A stretch of DNA of 64,000 nt from Pyrinomonadaceae bacterium (GTDB lineage: Bacteria > Acidobacteriota > Blastocatellia > Pyrinomonadales > Pyrinomonadaceae), in contig JAHCHG010000012.1 of assembly GCA_026129865.1 (NCBI GenBank), forward strand, positions 1-64,000, written 5' to 3'. Within the stretch, counting starts at the first letter, position 1. Every line of letters begins with the position of its first letter. The notes below the pieces were generated by a model. The model worked only from the letters and a program-made list of their open reading frames with translations. It was not told the origin of the DNA and did not search any database. The position numbers were made by a program, and so were the translations under genes. Positions 5,092 through 58,382 of the stretch are shown here, one piece after another.

Positions 5092-8000
5092 ATGAAAAAA
5101 AATATCGCTTTTCTTGCCGTCGTTTTTTTATTTTCAACAATTTTTGTCCAGGCTGCAGGCGAACTTGATCCCGGGTTCGGTCATGTCGGATTCAAGACGA
5201 TCTCGTTTACGAATGGGCTCGACCGCGCACGTGCAATTTTGCGTCAGCCTGACGGTAAGATAGTTCTCGTCGGCAACCGCAACGACGAATCCGGTTCGGC
5301 GATAACGCTTGTCAGATTTAATCCGGACGGAACGCTCGATTCTTCGTTCGGTACCGGCGGCAGCGTGCTCGACGAAAACGGACAGGCGAATGCCGCCGTA
5401 CTTCAACCCGACGGCAAGATCGTCGTTACTGGAAAGATCTCGTCGATCACGGGGACATTTTTTGCGGTCATCCGCTACAACCCGAACGGAACGCTCGATT
5501 CGACTTTTGCGACCGGCGGAAAGCTTACCGATACCGTTAATTTTCTTGGAAATTCGATCGCGGTTCAACCGGATGGAAAGATCGTCGTCGGCGGAACCGG
5601 AAAGGGTTCCACCATTTTCGACGATTTTGCAGCTGCGCGAATAAATTCGAACGGAACTTACGACACAAGTTTCGACGGCGATGGTAAAGCATTTACAAAT
5701 GTCGGCGAACAGTCGGCAAATGACGGAAACGACATCGGAACTTCGGTCGCAATTCAAACGGACGGTAAGATTGTCATTGGCGGAATCGCACCGTTTACTG
5801 CGACCGGGCGAGATTTTGCGATAGTTCGATACAATGTCGACGGTTCGCTCGACACTTCGTTTGACGGCGACGGCATTTTCCACACTTCGCTCGCCGGCGC
5901 GTCGCAAATGGAGATCCTTCGATCAATCGAATTGGACGGTTTTGGACGGATCATCGCCGTCGGTTCGGCATCTGAAGCTGTTGCCGAATCGTCTTTTGCC
6001 TTGATCCGTTTGAATTCTGATGGAAATTTAGACACAACCTTCAGCGGCGACGGAAAACTTTTGATCAAGACGCGGGGGAATACGTTCGAAGAGGCGAACG
6101 ATGTAGTGATTCACGCCGGAAACAAGATCCTGATCGCCGGTTCTTCCGGCTATTCGGCGGTCGATCTCGCGCTTGTCCGCTTTAATGACGACGGTTCGCT
6201 CGATAACAGTTTCGGAAGCGGCGGCGTTGTTTACACGCGAATTTCGGAAGAATTGGACGGCATCTTAAACGCGTTAGGGCTTGCGCCGAACGGCGACATC
6301 GTTGCGGGCGGCTCCGCTCAAAACAGCGCGGGCGGCGAAGATTTTGTTTTTGCAAAATACAGCGCTAACGGTGTGCCGACGCCGGCGTTCGGTGTGCCGG
6401 GCTACGTTTTAAAGAATCTTTTCGACAACAATACGACTTCATACGAAGGCAAGTCGGTCGCGCTTCAGGCGGACGGCAGGCTTGTCGTTGCCGGGAATTT
6501 TTATTCTAATACCGGCGCGTCGAACGGGTTCGTTGCACGGCTCGACCGAAACGGTTCGCTCGACCGAAATTTCAATAATCAGAGCGGTTTTCTGACGATA
6601 AATTCGCCATCGGCAGACGAACGCGAGATCACCGCCGTCGCAGTCCAGCCGGACGGAAAGATCGTCGTAGTCGGAAATTACGAAGGTTCAAGCGATTTCG
6701 GCATTTTCGTTTCGCGTTTCAATTCGAACGGAACGCCGGACACGACGTTCGGCAGCAGCGGTGTTGCGGTCATCAGCATTTTTTCCGGCGGCGGATTGGG
6801 ACAGGATATTGCTATTCTACCGAATGGAAAGATCGCGATCGCGGGTGCGTCGGTCAACATTTTCACACAGCTTGCGAAATTTGCGGTTTTTCGACTTACG
6901 GCAAACGGCTCGCTCGATTCGACATTCGGATCGGGCGGTGTTTCGTCGACCAGTTTCAGCGCGAGCAACGACGTTGCGCTTTCGTTAGCGGTTCAAGCGG
7001 ACGGAAAATTGGTCGCGGCTGGTTCGGGAAATTTCGATCTCGGTTCGAACGGACTGCTCGCAGCAGCAAGGTTTAACACGAACGGATCGCTCGACACCTC
7101 TTTCGGAACGGGCGGCAAGATCTCGTCCGACATCGGACCGGCGATCGATCTGGCGGCGGACGTTAAGATCCAAACGGACGGAAAAGTGGTTGTCGGCGGA
7201 GTCACCTGTACCGACGCAAATTGCGGCGGCGGCAACGCGCTGATCTTTCGATATAATTCGAACGGCGCGGCAGATACTTCGTTTAACGGCAATGGACGCG
7301 TTTTTGTCCAACCGGTTAACTCCGGCGCGCCGACGGCAATTTCGGGCATCGCGATTCAGAACGACGGAAAGATCGTGGGCGCCGGCGCCGTTCAAAATTC
7401 CGGTTCGGGAAGCGATGCGCTGATCGTTAGATATCTTTCAAACGGCGCGCCCGACAGCAGCTTTGGTCAAAACGGCATCGTCGAACAGGATATTAATAAT
7501 ACGGAACAGATCGCGTATTCGATCGCCGTTCAGCCGGACGGTAAACTCGTCGCGACGGGCTCGCACCTGGCGGGCACCCAGACGGAACTTGCGGTTTGGC
7601 GGTTTCTCGGCGAGAACCAGCAGGCGCTTTCACCCGTCAAATTTGATTTTGACGGAGACAGAAAGTCGGACGTAGGCATTTTCCGACCGGCGCAGGGCGA
7701 ATGGTGGTATCTGCGTTCGGGCAACGGCGGAAATGCCGCGTTCTCGTTCGGGACGTCGAACGACAAACTCGCTCCGGCGGATTTTACCGGCGACGGAAAG
7801 ACAGACGTCGCGTTTTGGCGTGAATCGACCGGTGAATGGTTTATTCTGCGGTCCGAAAATGGATCGTTTTATTCCTTTGTGTTCGGAACGACCGGCGATA
7901 TCCCGATGCCGGCAGATTACGACGGCGACGGAATTGCCGATCCCGCCATTTTCCGACCTTCAAATGCGACTTGGTACGTTTTGCGTTCGACCGGTGGAAT

Positions 8001-8460
8001 TTTGATAACGCAGTTTGGCGCCGCCGGCGATGAACCCGTCGCAGCTGACTATGACGGCGACGGTAAAGACGACATGGCGATATTTCGACCTTCGACCGGC
8101 GAATGGTGGATTAACCGCTCGACCGCCGGAATTGCCGTTTACAATTTCGGTTTGAGCAGCGATCTGACTGTTCCGGCGGACTTTACCGGCGACGGAAAAG
8201 CCGATGTCGCGTTCTGGCGACCGTCGACCGGCGAATGGTTCGTCTTGCGAAGCGAGGACGGTTCGTTCTACTCGTTTGCGTTCGGAACCGCCGGCGATGT
8301 TCCCGCAGTCGGCGATTTCGACGGTGACGGACGGGCAGACCCGACCGTTTTTCGTCCGTCGAACCGCGTCTGGTACAAACTGCAGTCAACGAACGGATTC
8401 AGCGCGATCACATTTGGAGCGCCGGGCGACATTCCCGTTCACTCGGCTTTTAATCGTTGA
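5092..8460 (+). CDS. Secreted delta-60 / FG-GAP repeat protein
   Basis: 1122 residues. A signal peptide (MKKN then a hydrophobic run ending VQAAG) is followed by about 14 repeats of 55-65 residues carrying 'QPDGKIVV.G', 'ARFN.NGSLDTSFG.GG', the delta-60 repeat. From about residue 860 to the end come seven FG-GAP/VCBS-like repeats of the form 'DFTGDGKTDVAFWRPSTGEW' with 'FGTAGDVP', whose DxDGDG loops are likely Ca2+-binding. Both halves should fold as beta-propellers. The protein is exported; a role in surface adhesion or carbohydrate contact is inference. AAAAGGA precedes the ATG. No sorting domain is visible at the C terminus. Confidence 0.93.
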   Translation: MKKNIAFLAVVFLFSTIFVQAAGELDPGFGHVGFKTISFTNGLDRARAILRQPDGKIVLVGNRNDESGSAITLVRFNPDGTLDSSFGTGGSVLDENGQANAAVLQPDGKIVVTGKISSITGTFFAVIRYNPNGTLDSTFATGGKLTDTVNFLGNSIAVQPDGKIVVGGTGKGSTIFDDFAAARINSNGTYDTSFDGDGKAFTNVGEQSANDGNDIGTSVAIQTDGKIVIGGIAPFTATGRDFAIVRYNVDGSLDTSFDGDGIFHTSLAGASQMEILRSIELDGFGRIIAVGSASEAVAESSFALIRLNSDGNLDTTFSGDGKLLIKTRGNTFEEANDVVIHAGNKILIAGSSGYSAVDLALVRFNDDGSLDNSFGSGGVVYTRISEELDGILNALGLAPNGDIVAGGSAQNSAGGEDFVFAKYSANGVPTPAFGVPGYVLKNLFDNNTTSYEGKSVALQADGRLVVAGNFYSNTGASNGFVARLDRNGSLDRNFNNQSGFLTINSPSADEREITAVAVQPDGKIVVVGNYEGSSDFGIFVSRFNSNGTPDTTFGSSGVAVISIFSGGGLGQDIAILPNGKIAIAGASVNIFTQLAKFAVFRLTANGSLDSTFGSGGVSSTSFSASNDVALSLAVQADGKLVAAGSGNFDLGSNGLLAAARFNTNGSLDTSFGTGGKISSDIGPAIDLAADVKIQTDGKVVVGGVTCTDANCGGGNALIFRYNSNGAADTSFNGNGRVFVQPVNSGAPTAISGIAIQNDGKIVGAGAVQNSGSGSDALIVRYLSNGAPDSSFGQNGIVEQDINNTEQIAYSIAVQPDGKLVATGSHLAGTQTELAVWRFLGENQQALSPVKFDFDGDRKSDVGIFRPAQGEWWYLRSGNGGNAAFSFGTSNDKLAPADFTGDGKTDVAFWRESTGEWFILRSENGSFYSFVFGTTGDIPMPADYDGDGIADPAIFRPSNATWYVLRSTGGILITQFGAAGDEPVAADYDGDGKDDMAIFRPSTGEWWINRSTAGIAVYNFGLSSDLTVPADFTGDGKADVAFWRPSTGEWFVLRSEDGSFYSFAFGTAGDVPAVGDFDGDGRADPTVFRPSNRVWYKLQSTNGFSAITFGAPGDIPVHSAFNR

Positions 8461-11977: not shown

Positions 11978-12621
11978 GGATTTTATAATAAAGAACGCGC
12001 CTTGTTGGGGCAGACGATGAATTTTTTATATCCGTTTATATTTTTGTTTCATCGGACAACGGTAGTGAATTAAGAAAAATGCAGAATCAATTGTTTGCTC
12101 CGTAGGAGCTTATGTTAATAGCCACGCGATTTATCGCGTGGGCTGATTTGATAGAAGTTTTAAGTCCCGTAGGGACGAAAGAAACTGTCGACCCTACGGG
12201 ACTTCGACAAAATTTCACATATTCCACGCGATAAATCGCGTGGCTATTAACGAAATGTCCCTACGGGACAGATACTTTCAAAGCATTACTTTTAGTTCAC
12301 TACCTGAACAATTCTCTGGCGCGTTCTCAAACTTTTTAATGATAACGTGAGTTCGACATAAGAATTACGGATTTAGTCGGTGAAACCGACGTTATACTTT
12401 TAGCCCACATCGCAAGATGTGGGGATAATCGTAAAGTGTTTAATAAAGCCATTGAAAATGGCGGCATATAATTTATGTCGCGGTTTTCAACCGCTTAAAT
12501 TCTTGATTCGACTGTTCCCATAACTTGCGCTATGGGCTACAAATATACCACCGTCTTCGACGGCTGATTCCGAGCTCACTTTAATAATAGAAACTTTTTA
12601 AAAGAACAAGGAGGAAATTTA
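11978..12621. repeat. Intergenic array of about twelve short hairpins (REP-like)
   Basis: This 644-bp spacer has no credible gene. It contains perfect or near-perfect hairpins at 12098-12108, 12122-12141, 12164-12176, 12187-12207, 12224-12243, 12257-12269, 12376-12390, 12404-12423, 12448-12462, 12480-12494, 12517-12536 and 12551-12563. The pair at 12122 and 12224 (CCACGCG stem, loops ATTTAT and ATAAAT) is inverted, as are the GTCCCGTAGGGAC-type pair. Several others have a TGAAA/TTTCA loop. The end of the spacer (AAGGAGGAAATTTA) is the ribosome site of the next gene. Confidence 0.8.
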
Positions 12622-21929: not shown

Positions 21930-22142
21930 CAATGTATCGCGGAGCGATTAGGTGAATTTAGCCGTGTGATTTATCGCACGGTTATTTGACAGAAAAGATT
22001 TATGGTCGCGTCAGTGACAATTGAAAATTAGACGAAATTCAATCGTTGCTGACGCAACGAGAAATAATTTGCTTGATTTTTCCGTGCGTTGAAACACACG
22101 GCTAAATTCGATTTGTCGCTACGCGGCATAAGCAAATACTCA
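21930..22142. repeat. Hairpin (REP-like) inverted pair at the right end of the insertion
   Basis: GAATTTAGCCGTGTG at 21954-21968 is repeated exactly in reverse complement at 22095-22109. Inside are hairpins CCGTGTG-atttat-CGCACGG, CGTTG-ctgacg-CAACG and CCGTG..CACGG. The first has the same ATTTAT loop and flanks (TAGCC..) as the hairpin at 12122 but different stem bases. No credible gene is present here. Confidence 0.75.
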
Positions 22143-34857: not shown

Positions 34858-36714
34858 ATGAGCCTTTCAAAGAAATTTCAAAAATTGGTGCGAAGCTGGA
34901 AGCAGGACGGATTTGAAGGCGTTTTTCACGCATTAGAATTTGCTTATAAAGAAGTTCGCGACAAGGCAAGCTATCGGCAGTTTGTTCGAAATGAGAGTCT
35001 TTCTAAAGATGTTTATCGACGTCTTATCGGACAGTTTTCTTCCGATCCGCTGATATCGGTGATCTTGCCGGTTTACAACGTCGAGGAAAAATACCTTCGA
35101 CTGTGTCTGGACAGCGTTTTGAACCAGTTTTATGAAAACTGGGAACTGTGCATAGCGGACGATAAAAGCCCTTCGCCGCATATTAAGCGTGTTTTGGACG
35201 AATACGCATCGCGCGATGAGCGGATAAAGGTCGTTTACCGCGAGAAAAACGGGCATATTTCGGCGGCTTCAAATTCAGCGCTGGAAATGGCTTCAGGTGA
35301 ATTTTGCGTACTTCTCGACCACGATGACGAACTGGCGCCGCACGCGCTTTTTCATGTCGCGAAAGTTTTGAACGAACGTCCGGATACGGCGATGATCTAT
35401 TCGGACGAAGATCTGATCGACAAAAACGGTCGCCGCTTTGACCCGAAATTCAAGCCCGATTTCGCCCGCGATCTGTTTTACTCAGGCAATCTAGTGACGC
35501 ATTTGTCGGCGTACAGAACCTCGCTCCTTCGCGAGATCGGCGGATTTCGCGTCGGAATGGAAGGCAGCCAGGATTACGATCTGGCGCTCCGCGTGATCGA
35601 ACGGATCGACAACGGGCAGATCGTTCATATTCCCGAAATTCTTTATCACTGGCGGGTAATAGAAGGTTCTGTCGCGCTAAGCGGCGACGAAAAACCGTAC
35701 GCCCACGATGCCGCGCGCCGCGCGATCGGCGAACATCTCGCGCGAATAGGAAAAAAAGCGCGGGTCGAACCGACCGAATACAATCTTCACCGCGTTAGAT
35801 ATGAATTGCCGGAAAACCTTCCGAAAGTAGCACTTATCATCAGCGGAAGCCGAACGATCGAATGTTCGGAAAAAACTATCGAACATCTGATCGATAGGAC
35901 CGATTACCCAAATCTGGAGATCATTTCCATCGACGCGACCAAGGCAGAAACGCCACCGCCAGGGAGCGTGCCAGACACCTCGCTTTCAAACCCAATCGCC
36001 CCGCAGGCAGAAACGCGACCGCTAGGGAGCGTGCCAGACACCTCGCCTTCAAACCCAACCGCCCCGCAGGCAGAAACGCGACCGCTAGGGAGCGTGCCAA
36101 ACACGTCGCCACAAGACTACGATTCACATGCGGAATACCTTAACCGAGCAGCCACCCAAACGGATGCCGAGATTCTCTGTTTTTTCAAAAGCGGACTTAA
36201 ACCGCTGAACAAAGACTGGCTTAAGGAAATGGTCAGTTTCGCGATTCAGGAGGAAACGGGAGCGGTTGGGGCAAAAATTCTCGATAGAGCCGGAACGATT
36301 GCGCACGGCGGGCTTATTATCGGCGGAAAACACGGCGTTTCGATCGCGCATCATCGGCATCCGTCGGATCAGCCTGGAAACATTTCGCGCGCCCAGCTAA
36401 TCGGAAATTTTTCCGCCGTTTCCGCGGCTTGTATGGCTATAAAACGCAAAGATTTTGAAGAACTTAAGGGATTTAACGGGGAAGATTTCCCGGAGAATTT
36501 ATTCGATGCCGACCTTTGCCTGAGATTACTGAACGCGGGAAAGCGAAATATGTTTACCCCGTACGCTGAGATCGAGGGAGAACTGATTCTTGGTTCAACG
36601 GAAAGGGAGCGTTTACGATTTCATGAGGTCTGGGGAGAACAGGCGAAACGCGACCGGTTTTATAGCGAGCATCTTTCACCCGAAAGCGGATCAATAAGGC
36701 TCAAATCCATTTAA
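34858..36714 (+). CDS. Large glycosyltransferase family 2 with internal tandem repeats
   Basis: 618 residues. A helical lead (1-60) is followed by a GT-A domain: 'ISVILPVYNVEEKYLRLCLD', 'ADDKSPSPHIKRVLDEY', 'ENGHISAASNSALEMASGEF', 'VLLDHDDELAPHAL', 'IYSDEDLIDKNGRRFDPKFK' and 'GSQDYDLALRVIERI'. A second GT2-like half from about residue 322 ('VALIISGSRTIECSEKTIEH') is interrupted by a low-complexity stretch of three 21-residue repeats (about 362-418, 'AETRPLGSVPDTS') encoded by 63-bp DNA repeats. The C-terminal 'NAGKRNMFTPYAEIEGEL' is typical of this O-antigen glycosyltransferase type. It ends tail-to-tail with the next gene (4-bp overlap). Confidence 0.88.
   Translation: MSLSKKFQKLVRSWKQDGFEGVFHALEFAYKEVRDKASYRQFVRNESLSKDVYRRLIGQFSSDPLISVILPVYNVEEKYLRLCLDSVLNQFYENWELCIADDKSPSPHIKRVLDEYASRDERIKVVYREKNGHISAASNSALEMASGEFCVLLDHDDELAPHALFHVAKVLNERPDTAMIYSDEDLIDKNGRRFDPKFKPDFARDLFYSGNLVTHLSAYRTSLLREIGGFRVGMEGSQDYDLALRVIERIDNGQIVHIPEILYHWRVIEGSVALSGDEKPYAHDAARRAIGEHLARIGKKARVEPTEYNLHRVRYELPENLPKVALIISGSRTIECSEKTIEHLIDRTDYPNLEIISIDATKAETPPPGSVPDTSLSNPIAPQAETRPLGSVPDTSPSNPTAPQAETRPLGSVPNTSPQDYDSHAEYLNRAATQTDAEILCFFKSGLKPLNKDWLKEMVSFAIQEETGAVGAKILDRAGTIAHGGLIIGGKHGVSIAHHRHPSDQPGNISRAQLIGNFSAVSAACMAIKRKDFEELKGFNGEDFPENLFDADLCLRLLNAGKRNMFTPYAEIEGELILGSTERERLRFHEVWGEQAKRDRFYSEHLSPESGSIRLKSI
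35943..36110 (+). repeat. 63-bp in-frame tandem repeats
   Basis: Units begin at 35943, 36006 and 36069 (last one partial). Each carries GGCAGAAACGC, then CGCT/CGCC-aggg-AGCG and TGCCAGACACC or close variants. Units 2 and 3 are nearly identical. The length is a multiple of three and the repeats are read in frame inside the glycosyltransferase. Confidence 0.85.
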
Positions 36715-54772: not shown

Positions 54773-55780
54773 CTAATAGTTCGCAAGCTTTCGGCAAGCT
54801 TCTGTGATCTCGCTCAAGCTCGGCAAAAAGTAATCTTCCATCTGCGGGGCGAACGGCACGGGTGCATCTATTGAAGCAACACGAATTACGGGAGCATCGA
54901 GCCATTCAAAGGCTTCTTCGGCGATGATCGCGGAAAGTTCGCCGCCGATTCCGCCCGTCAAAGACGATTCGTGCAAGATCATTACACGGTTCGTCTTTTT
55001 AACCGTCGCCAGAATCGCCTCTTTATCGAGCGGCGCTAAGCTTCGAAGATCAATTACCTCAACCGAAAGTCCATCTTCTTTTTCAAGATGCTCGGCGGCG
55101 TCTAAAGCATTTAAAACCTGCGCACCGAAAGTGATGATCGAAAGATCTTTGCCTTCGCGAGCTGTGCGCGCCTTGCCGATCTCGACGATGTAATCGTCTT
55201 CAGGCAATTCTTCTCTCAGTCGCGGCAGACGATAAAGTTTTTTATGTTCGAAAAACAAAACCGGATCGCGATCACGGATCGCCGCTTTGATCAAACCTTT
55301 AGCGTCGTAAGCCGTCGAAGGCTCGACCATTTTGAGTCCCGCCGTGTTTAAGAAAAACGATTCCGCATTCAACGAATGAAACGGTCCGCCGCGAACACCG
55401 CTGCCGCACGGACCTCGGAATACGGCTTGAATCCCCCCGCATCCGCGGTAACGCGATTTCGCCGCGTAATTCGTCAGCATATCGAATCCGCACGAGATAA
55501 AATCGATAAACTGAAATTCGGCGACCGGCTTCATTCCCATCAACGCCGCCCCGCACGCCGCCCCGACAATTGCCGCTTCACTAATCGGCGTATCGATCAT
55601 CCGTTCCGCACCGAATTCGTCGATAAATCCCTCGGTCAATTTAAACGCGCCGCCGTACGCGCCGATGTCTTCGCCGATAACAAACACGCTCTCGTCGCGC
55701 GTCATCTCTTCGTGAATTCCTTGCCTGATCGCTTCGATAAGCGTCAATCCTTTTGTTTCTTGTTTTGCTGTTGATGTCAT
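54773..55780 (-). CDS. pdhB: Pyruvate/2-oxoacid dehydrogenase E1 component, beta subunit
   Basis: 335 residues. Transketolase-type pyrimidine domain ('EAIRQGIHEEMTRDESVFVI', 'GEDIGAYGGAFKLTEGFIDE', 'DTPISEAAIVGAACGAALMG', 'AVFRGPCGSGVRGGPFHSLN') and C-terminal domain ('DLSIITFGAQVLNALDAAE', 'DLRSLAPLDKEAILATVKK', 'GGIGGELSAIIAEEAFEWLD'). With the alpha subunit it decarboxylates pyruvate or a branched-chain oxoacid using TPP. The alpha gene is not adjacent but lies 6 kb upstream on the same strand at 61914. Confidence 0.95.
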   Translation of the reverse strand: MTSTAKQETKGLTLIEAIRQGIHEEMTRDESVFVIGEDIGAYGGAFKLTEGFIDEFGAERMIDTPISEAAIVGAACGAALMGMKPVAEFQFIDFISCGFDMLTNYAAKSRYRGCGGIQAVFRGPCGSGVRGGPFHSLNAESFFLNTAGLKMVEPSTAYDAKGLIKAAIRDRDPVLFFEHKKLYRLPRLREELPEDDYIVEIGKARTAREGKDLSIITFGAQVLNALDAAEHLEKEDGLSVEVIDLRSLAPLDKEAILATVKKTNRVMILHESSLTGGIGGELSAIIAEEAFEWLDAPVIRVASIDAPVPFAPQMEDYFLPSLSEITEACRKLANY

Positions 55781-55811
55781 TTAACTTGTAATCTTAAATC
55801 CCGCTTCTCAA

Positions 55812-55846
55812 GTCGCCAAAGGCGACAAACAATATAGCCTAGGGTG
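55812..55846 (+). repeat. Left inverted repeat of the RAYT element
   Basis: Hairpin GTCGCC-aaa-GGCGAC followed by ATATAGCCTAGGGTG. One mismatch against the reverse complement of 56421-56455. Confidence 0.85.
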
Positions 55847-55913
55847 CAGGCGTTTCGCCGAAACCCTAGGTCTTGATAATCAAATCGCCGCTCGCTGAAG
55901 GCGAGCAATAATT

Positions 55914-56366
55914 TCAATCCCAAACATACCGCTCGTCGTAATCAATCTCGTATTTTTTCAACAAAGCCCTGAATTCGTCCTTGAAATCCTGTTTTTCATG
56001 ATGCTGTTTTTGATTTTTGATATATCTGATAACCGTTTCAACCTGCGACTGCCCGATTGAAAACGCTCCGTAACCTTTTTGCCAATAAAATTCGGAGAAT
56101 TTTGCGTGTTGTTTTTTAATCCACGTCGAACTATCGCGTTTGATGTCGCCGATGAGTTCGGAAACGTCAATTTTGCGCGGTAATGAAACGAGCAAATGGA
56201 TATGATTCGCCGTTCCGCCCGCGATAATCAATTTCGCGCCGTTGTTTTCGACGATGCCGTGAATGTATTTGTAAAGTTCGGCTTCGATTTCCGGCGCGAT
56301 CAAATCACGGCGGTTTTTCGTCGAGAAAATGATGTGAGCCAAAAATTTGAACAACGATTGCGGCAT
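55914..56366 (-). CDS. REP-associated tyrosine transposase (Y1, IS200/IS605-like)
   Basis: 150 residues, full length for the family. The HUH motif is His55-Ile-His57 in 'GGTANHIHLLVSLPRKIDVS', and the catalytic Tyr115 is in 'QVETVIRYIKNQKQHHEKQD'. 'HIIFSTKNRRDLIAPEIEAE' is the usual beginning. These enzymes cut single-stranded DNA next to hairpins and mobilise REP sequences. All catalytic residues are present, so it may be active. The gene is flanked by its own hairpins within the element. Confidence 0.95.
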   Translation of the reverse strand: MPQSLFKFLAHIIFSTKNRRDLIAPEIEAELYKYIHGIVENNGAKLIIAGGTANHIHLLVSLPRKIDVSELIGDIKRDSSTWIKKQHAKFSEFYWQKGYGAFSIGQSQVETVIRYIKNQKQHHEKQDFKDEFRALLKKYEIDYDERYVWD

Positions 56367-56420
56367 CCGTTTATTCGTCGCCTTCAGCGACGGTTCTGTT
56401 TCGTCATTTTCCTAGGGTTT

Positions 56421-56455
56421 CACCCTAGGCTATATTATTTGTCGCCTTTGGCGAC
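56421..56455 (-). repeat. Right inverted repeat of the RAYT element
   Basis: Reverse complement of 55812-55846 with a single mismatch, ending in hairpin GTCGCC-ttt-GGCGAC. Confidence 0.85.
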
Positions 56456-56478
56456 CTGTCGAAATTGAAATTCCAGAA

Positions 56479-58272
56479 TCATTTCATAATCGTCTGATCC
56501 AATTTCTCGACAATCCGCCCGACCGGATAGAGTCCAATTTTTTTGTCGAAGTACGGCGAGCGTTCGTAAAAGAAATTTAAACGCGCTCTTGGGTTTTTCG
56601 CAAACGCTTCGTCTTTTAGTTTCTCTTCAAATTCCTTTCTTAATTCAGGGTTTTTCTCTAACATCTCCGCGGCGATCTTTTCCAGGATATAGCTCTCGGC
56701 ATATTCCTTTTGCTCGAATATCGGATTGAAAAATCCCCAGTACATGAACGAATCCGGCGCTTCTGGTTCCAGCAAATGTATCGCTGCATCCGCTGCCGTT
56801 TGGTCGAGCGGGATGATTATCGAATTTGCCGGAAACATCCGCGTTTCCTTGATCGGAACGGTTTTGAAATTCAGGGTTACGCGACCTTCGAACGACTGGT
56901 TTGCCCATTTTACGTCTTCAAAACGGTAGCTTTCGACTTCCGTTTCAAGCGGTTTTTCGATTGTTTGAAATTTAATTCCGTGCGCTTTTATTACTTCGAT
57001 TACATCTTGCCATTGCGGCGGGATGATGTAGTAAAGCGGCGGCGCGACGGATGCAGAAATTCTTGCGTCATCGTATTTTTTGATCGTTATTTCCATCGGT
57101 TTTGTTCCGTAAATCAACCGCTCTGCGCCGGAAATTTCGCTTTTTTCTTTGTTCCATTCGACGGCTTTTAAATTAAAATCGGTCGCCTTGTCGGTCAGTT
57201 CTAATCGTAAAGGAAATTTACGGTTCGGATCGTAAGTTTTGCCGCGTTCGATAGTCGCTTCGTCTGCATTTTGGTTTGCTTCAAAAAGGCTTTTCTTTGA
57301 TCGGTTAATTTCCTCGATTGTGTGGCGCAAAATGTCGTAAGTTCCGCGAACGCGAGATTTATAGGGTTTAAGACTGTGTGTTTCGATCAATAATCCGGCG
57401 CGGTTTCTGAGCGGCGTGTAACCCGTCGCAAATCTCGGCGTGGCGATGAACGTGTAGATTCCGCTCGTTACTTCGCGTCCGCCGAATGAAAGATAATGAG
57501 TTACTAGATTTCCTTCCGATTCGACTTTCGGCGCGATCTTGCCGTCGAAATATTCGTCCATCCAATTTTTGATAAACGGCGAAACCTCCGCGTGGTGCGC
57601 GTATTCGTAGGTCAAATTATATTGAAAATCCGCGCCGTCGGTTACATGGCAATCTATGAAAAAATCGGGTTTCCAATCGTTCCAAAGCCGCAGCCAGGCG
57701 CGTGTTTCGGGCGCATCGGCTTTCATATAATCGCGGTTAAGGTTCAGTCCCGCAGAAGTTGCGCGAAAGCCCATTTCTTCTGGACCGTTTTGATTGATGC
57801 GGTTGTAAGGCGAGCGGAGTTCGTGTCCGTCAACATTGTAGATCGGGACAAAAAGAATAATCGTGTCTTTAAGAAGTTCGGCGCGTGTTTTCGTGATCGC
57901 AATATCGCGCAGGAGCGCAAATCCCGCGTCTTTTCCGTCAATTTCGCCGCTGTGAATTCCGGCTTGAATAAAAACGATCGCTTTGCCGCTTTTTTTCGCA
58001 GCCTCGGGCGTAAAATGTTTACCGCTCGAAACAATAAGCAGCGGCATTTCTCTCCCTTCGCCCGATCTGCCGAAGGATTTATATTCGATCAGATCGGACG
58101 CTTTCGCCAGTTTTTGTGCGAAAGAAATCGTGTCGGCGTAAGTCCAGCTCTTTCGATAATCGGTTTGTTCCGCTAAGGTCTGCCATTCTTTCGGCACATT
58201 TTTCGAATCGCTTTGGGCATTTATGGTCATAATGAAAATCGATATTAAAAAAACAAAAACGGTAAATTTCAT
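56479..58272 (-). CDS. Secreted M14 family zinc carboxypeptidase-like protein
   Basis: 597 residues from the ATG at 58272; the signal peptide 'KFTVFVFLISIFIMTINAQ' begins there. M14 motifs: 'FIQAGIHSGEIDGKDAGFAL' (HxxE zinc ligands), 'PIYNVDGHELRSPYNRINQN' (substrate Arg/Asn region), 'FFIDCHVTDGADFQYNLTYE' (third ligand His), and 'GLLIETHSLKPYKSRVRGTY' (candidate catalytic Glu). The C-terminal 200 residues have no named domain. It should trim peptides or peptidoglycan fragments outside the cell. Confidence 0.9.
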   Translation of the reverse strand: MKFTVFVFLISIFIMTINAQSDSKNVPKEWQTLAEQTDYRKSWTYADTISFAQKLAKASDLIEYKSFGRSGEGREMPLLIVSSGKHFTPEAAKKSGKAIVFIQAGIHSGEIDGKDAGFALLRDIAITKTRAELLKDTIILFVPIYNVDGHELRSPYNRINQNGPEEMGFRATSAGLNLNRDYMKADAPETRAWLRLWNDWKPDFFIDCHVTDGADFQYNLTYEYAHHAEVSPFIKNWMDEYFDGKIAPKVESEGNLVTHYLSFGGREVTSGIYTFIATPRFATGYTPLRNRAGLLIETHSLKPYKSRVRGTYDILRHTIEEINRSKKSLFEANQNADEATIERGKTYDPNRKFPLRLELTDKATDFNLKAVEWNKEKSEISGAERLIYGTKPMEITIKKYDDARISASVAPPLYYIIPPQWQDVIEVIKAHGIKFQTIEKPLETEVESYRFEDVKWANQSFEGRVTLNFKTVPIKETRMFPANSIIIPLDQTAADAAIHLLEPEAPDSFMYWGFFNPIFEQKEYAESYILEKIAAEMLEKNPELRKEFEEKLKDEAFAKNPRARLNFFYERSPYFDKKIGLYPVGRIVEKLDQTIMK

Positions 58273-58382
58273 AAGATTTCTATTTTGATCCGCTGGGTCG
58301 AAAATGTTCCTTTCCGGATAGATCATAGATGTTAGTTAAAAGATCGTTGATCTTTCATCTATCATTTATTTCGAACATTATT

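Follow-up and report, generated by a model that had tools for sequence, protein, structure and literature searches.

The window, by which we mean the whole 64-kb stretch of DNA that was analysed, contains an intact gene for a Y1 (HUH) transposase of 150 amino acids at positions 55914-56366 on the minus strand. Judged by eye from the sequence, one neighbour of the gene (54773-55780) presumably encodes a dehydrogenase of the E1-beta type, and the other (56479-58326) is what we take to be an M14-type peptidase gene. The open reading frame was matched by Pfam Y1_Tnp with an E-value of 2.9e-29. The HUH and Tyr residues on which an earlier note on this DNA had based its reading of an intact Y1 transposase were found as NHIH (H55 and H57) and Tyr115, together with W95-Q96.

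By its motifs and length the protein fits subclass 1.2 of TnpA-Y1, which forms a side branch of the IS200 transposases. The Y---Q--HH motif of the subclass is present as YIKNQKQHH and WQ is present as well, and in the HUH motif the D of DH[IV]H is replaced by N. After Q119 of the Y motif another 31 residues follow, which with the total of 150 aa fits a protein of approx. 148 aa carrying a C-terminal extension of approx. 30. The most similar homologues in named genomes were found in Pyrinomonadaceae (Acidobacteriota). The earlier note had called the locus a RAYT element. That name suits the REPtron-like layout and the relatives with dispersed copies of their own stems, both described below, but by its sequence the protein falls outside the class 2 RAYTs: the Y---NP motif was not present in it, and it reached 27.2 bits with the NCBIfam model REP_Tyr_transpos (NF047646), for which the cut-off is 80.

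The protein scored above the cut-off of the NCBIfam IS200/IS605 model, and the solved structures related to it by sequence are IS200-type transposases. In a comparison of its AlphaFold model (mean pLDDT 88.5) the predicted fold was matched best by ISDra2 and IS608, with the TnpA-REP structure 4er8 lower. The locus could thus be a plain low-copy insertion sequence of the IS200 type, in which the hairpins are the ends and the whole unit including the gene moves, and exactly one gene is indeed bracketed by symmetrical ends. Against this, the own genome (4.4 Mb in 21 contigs) yielded six transposase matches, of which the five besides the window protein were 31-63% identical and none near-identical, and no tnpB-like open reading frame was seen alongside among those of the locus. 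The relatives described below add that gene-less pairs multiply there and the gene does not; taken together we consider a plain insertion sequence unlikely.

On both sides the gene is bounded by long inverted repeats. The core arms at 55812-55846 and 56421-56455 match in 34 of 35 positions, as had been noted before, and could be extended to 36 of 38 (left arm 55809-55846, plus strand, on the 3' side of the gene; right arm 56421-56458, minus strand, on the 5' side). Among the pairs listed for the window they rank second in length. Hairpins had also been claimed for both ends, and the predicted folding of the single-stranded DNA gave three per end, with an additional weak hairpin at one of them; none of 200 shuffled sequences folded as well (z of -7.5 and -5.5). 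The outer hairpin, GTCGCC-AAA-GGCGAC, lies at 55812-55826 on the left and at 56441-56455 on the right. The second hairpin, CCTAGGGT/ACCCTAGG, is the tagged one: on the left an ATAG tag (55834-55837) precedes a hairpin with an enlarged loop, the unit covering 55834-55870 on the plus strand, and on the right the hairpin (56411-56429) and its ATAG tag (56430-56433) cover 56411-56433 on the minus strand. Closest to the gene stand GCTCGC...GCGAGC at 55890-55906 and CGTCGC...GCGACG at 56376-56392. The gene sits between two hairpins in inverted orientation, and the tag at both ends is ATAG, not the GT[AG]G of class 2 RAYTs. No Rfam family was found at gathering score over 55600-56600.

Tagged hairpins at homologous loci

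To the 35 loci collected from the own genome and its relatives 80 loci from named genomes were added, and after two duplicates had been dropped 113 of the 115 subclass 1.2-like loci, from several phyla, were used. The Y---Q--HH motif occurred in 108 of these and Y[IV]--NP in none; the HUH motif was most often DHVH (54) or DHIH (27), followed by NHVH (11) and NHIH (7). Hairpins were counted up to 300 nt from the gene. AG stood on the outward foot, the one away from the gene, of 110 out of 237 hairpins, usually as TAG, and on the inward foot of 11 out of 237, a difference for which Fisher's test gave 1e-27, which is not a true probability because the sequences are related. On control feet AG was found in 15 of 174 cases at 600-1500 nt from the gene and in 7 of 78 at pdhB loci.

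Tagged hairpins are concentrated approx. 60-80 nt before the gene and 45-60 nt after it. In the named genomes, 24 of 78 loci carried outward-tagged hairpins at both ends and none carried inward-tagged ones at both ends. Divided into groups that were assigned by hand, the outward-tagged loci were 1 of 10 in Acidobacteriota, 8 of 33 in Bacteroidota, 11 of 23 in the PVC group and 4 of 12 among the others. Many subclass 1.2-like loci have no tagged hairpin. The closest homologue of the window protein (79% identity, L014, G022:C18) has an in-frame stop in the gene, yet its tagged end hairpins are retained.

The stems of the two ends were compared at 111 of the 115 loci (four were dropped), taking the hairpin nearest the gene. 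Tagged hairpins at both ends were present at 37 loci, and 28 of these had an identical 8-bp stem at both ends, compared with a mean of 2.8 and a maximum of 10 out of 37 when the ends were shuffled among loci. In nine close homologues, 17 of 18 ends contained an end module made up of a 15-nt outer hairpin, a spacer ending in the tag and the tagged hairpin, with a spacer of 11 nt in 14 of the 17. The stems of the module remain paired despite base changes; the search accepted tagged stems with no fewer than 7 of 8 bases paired, and since its pattern fixes several positions of the outer hairpin, pairing in the outer stem is freely tested at position 4 only.

Terminators are common just outside genes. 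The hairpins are positioned just there and would be transcribed, so we considered whether they are transcription terminators or mRNA-stability hairpins of an ordinary gene, unconnected to the enzyme. For such hairpins neither the outward AG tag nor the identical end stems would be expected, nor the dispersed pairs of fixed spacing found in other genomes, and the stems at the window element are not followed by a run of T. We regard this explanation as disfavoured and highly improbable.

Copies in the own genome and position in relatives

A 13-mer of the inner hairpin was found at two sites of the 4.4-Mb genome with at most one mismatch, both within the window element, and the genome held no dispersed copies of the element's own stem. 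The outer hairpin GTCGCCNNNGGCGAC had seven sites: two at the window element, four beside the 63% identical paralogue and one elsewhere. The further genome copies whose absence would, by the earlier note, refute its reading failed to appear for the inner hairpin, and for the outer one five of the seven sites lie away from the element, four of them at the paralogue. In a 464-kb sample of the own genome TAG stood on 7 of 330 hairpin feet, which is no enrichment. The earlier suggestion that the element was the source of the other hairpins of the window was rejected, because the stems differ and the inner hairpin is found only at the element's own two ends.

Several of these other hairpins were described in their own right. 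At 12105-12260 lies a REPIN-like unit, AATAG-CCACGCGATTTATCGCGTGG, whose inverted pair comprises both inner and outer hairpins and whose stem is unlike that of the window element; a second copy in the own genome, at G000:C15 81560-81990 (L255), is 93% identical over 227 bp, and the stem was found again in the relative G007. Two more inverted pairs of hairpins with a TAG tag, again differing in their stems, lie at 12401-12539 and 21938-22125, the latter with arms of 88 nt at 72%. The hairpins CGGAAAAGC/GCTTTTCCG at 2762-2782 and 2896-2916 form an inverted pair approx. 110 nt apart and carry no TAG tag. The regions 5237-8374 and 35942-36130 are repeat arrays with a spacing mostly in multiples of 3, containing copies of 37-41 nt and of 81 nt plus three tandem copies of 63 nt. 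Around another subclass 1.2-like gene of the own genome (L003, G000:C19) several copies of TTAG-CCGTGGGTTTTAACCCACGG were seen, and by the one stem pattern searched this stem occurs in the genome only there.

The position of the element was compared using 30 pdhB loci including that of the window. Neither the transposase nor the M14 gene was matched at any of the other 29, in agreement with the expectation that the element would not be at the same place in all relatives. As the adjacency of pdhB and M14 is not common to the fetched loci, no clean empty site is readable from them. In another genus (L015) a homologue lies near the same M14 gene, with a differing downstream side; owing to an extra open reading frame between the two, this insertion cannot clearly be equated with that of the window, nor clearly be taken as an independent one. 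Of 60 relatives, 42 had a transposase match and 18 had none.

A transposase that has been domesticated for a host role at the hairpins, in repair, chromosome structure or gene regulation, would leave the hairpins fixed and not mobile. The low copy number and divergence of the gene, the homologue that lies near this M14 gene in a different genus and the lack of dispersed copies in the own genome all speak for such a role, but the gene's absence from the 29 other pdhB loci and from nearly a third of the relatives speaks against it, as do the fixed-spacing dispersed pairs of other genomes, which resemble copies of a unit. We judge domestication to be improbable, slightly more so than the plain insertion sequence.

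Dispersed repeats in other genomes and the proposed activity

The stem search took in 50 loci out of the 80 from named genomes. Of these, 43 had been chosen for the hairpins seen beside the gene (mostly GGG-type) and 7 were without them; any stem match was obtained in 34 of the 50 genomes. For several of the genome searches the counts given here comprise all matches, and the positions are those among the matches listed. In the complete genome of the planctomycete Pan216 (CP036279.1) 38 stem matches were found against 3 for the control, and the stem flanking one tnpA gene repeats along the chromosome. Among the matches listed, 8 of the 9 neighbouring inverted pairs had a spacing of 119 nt, while the remaining one (578 nt) spans the tnpA gene. 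A second genome (G083) gave 47 matches against 0, and among those listed 10 of 18 pairs had a spacing of exactly 126 nt and one pair (589 nt) spans a tnpA gene. A third (G081) gave 43 against 0.

In a genome of the window's own family (G007) two stem searches gave 116 and 74 matches, each against 0 for the control. Of four stem families sampled there, two dispersed ones have the stems that flank two tnpA genes of this genome and two had no match to a gene, with six of the nine tnpA genes read. The largest population was seen in the genome of L110 (G077, Candidatus Parabeggiatoa), with 355 tagged GGG-type hairpins against 0 for the control and one tnpA match. Over the 60 relatives, 640 stem matches fell in the 42 genomes with tnpA and 3 in the 18 without, a contrast that is partly built in and thus supporting, not independent, because the patterns were taken from stems beside tnpA and the genomes are related. 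Dispersed inverted pairs that share a stem and keep a fixed spacing are, to judge from the sequences, REPIN behaviour.

At the level of sequence, the anatomy of the locus, the outward tag, the matched stems of the ends, their kept pairing and, elsewhere, dispersed fixed-spacing pairs with the stem of a local gene are all established. The window copy itself has an intact gene, matched ends and no dispersed copies in its own genome. We conclude, with a probability of roughly 0.75, that the window locus is REPtron-like, with a subclass 1.2 enzyme that acts on its own tagged hairpins and in favourable genomes mobilises REPINs. Most likely the enzyme would recognise its tagged hairpin, (A/T)TAG followed by the 8-bp stem, in single-stranded DNA, and Tyr115 would cut nearby, after which the strands would be joined. 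Known TnpA-REP proteins cut single-stranded REPs at CT, and in two systems out of three it was the last two letters of the tag that had the greatest influence on cleavage or on where it occurs (PMC8266576); by analogy, the AG of the tag may select cleavage at CT here. The REPINs mobilised in favourable genomes would be gene-less inverted pairs of the same tagged hairpins.

Our best reading of subclass 1.2 is that its enzymes are REPIN-mobilising, RAYT-like transposases that belong to the IS200 part of the family and use TAG in place of GTAG as the tag. We also lean, with somewhat better than even odds, towards the wider view that a REPIN-RAYT system exists on the IS200 (class 1) side as well, with subclass 1.2 enzymes serving a separate superfamily of REPs, tagged (T/C)AG, in Acidobacteriota, Bacteroidota, Planctomycetota, Verrucomicrobiota and others. 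The two ends would evolve in concert, new stems arising at both together. The system would represent an IS200-like element that was domesticated independently, or else a state near the ancestral one proposed by Bertels and Rainey (2011), whose article includes the proposal that REPINs may stem from the ends of an IS200-like ancestor (PMC3116915). If this is true, an HUH enzyme class that the literature describes as lacking a REP partner gains a DNA substrate open to testing, and hairpin repeats in several phyla gain a probable maker. Class 1 would also gain an example of a transposase that sustains gene-less repeats, with consequences for the question of a single or multiple origin of REPINs from IS200-like ends, and the subclass 1.2 loci are a natural place to test the derivation from such ends.

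Comparison with known systems

With the IS200/IS605 elements IS608 and ISDra2 the window element shares the protein fold, the HUH and Tyr motifs and hairpin ends. It differs from them in its symmetrical ends, the lack of a visible tnpB and its single, divergent copies.

The extended symmetrical ends had been taken as unusual, but Y1 genes enclosed by long terminal inverted repeats are the mark of the TIRtrons (TIRYTs), which Di Nocera et al. described in 2013 and reported from Acidobacteria as well (PMC3733652). Most TIRYTs were later assigned to subclass 2.1, with HTH extensions, in the 2018 survey (PMC6006769). Compared with the TIRtrons as characterised there (PMC3733652), the window protein belongs to another class and the repeat contains a tagged hairpin.

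Class 2 RAYT/TnpA-REP genes with GTAG REPs and REPINs (PMC2817692, PMC3116915) likewise have a Y1 gene between inverted tagged hairpins and a tag ending in AG, and the relatives of the window protein have dispersed inverted pairs of fixed spacing as they do. In contrast to class 2, the window protein lacks Y---NP, the tag usually reads TAG and lacks a constant G ahead of it, an outer hairpin is found at near-fixed spacing and the window copy has no dispersed repeats.

Closest of all is subclass 1.2 as set out by Quentin et al. (2018), who place it mainly in Cyanobacteria and Bacteroidetes with a median length of 148 aa, tabulate it as 'no' for REP and describe it as generally having no terminal secondary structures (PMC6006769). 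The window protein agrees with this description in Y---Q--HH, WQ, the I in the HUH motif, its length and C-terminal extension, and its low copy number with divergent copies. It differs in having NHIH and not DH[IV]H, in the tagged hairpins that flank its gene and in the nearest named relatives of its genome, which are Acidobacteriota. Going by the search procedure given in the survey, the automatic search for REPs demanded GTAG or GTGG, so TAG hairpins would escape it; a manual search also found none (PMC6006769). Within the PMC open-access literature searched, we found no earlier report of a link between subclass 1.2 and REPs, and the link is new within that scope. We read the tagged hairpins at this locus and at many homologues as a correction of the description of subclass 1.2, and not as a bar to membership in it.
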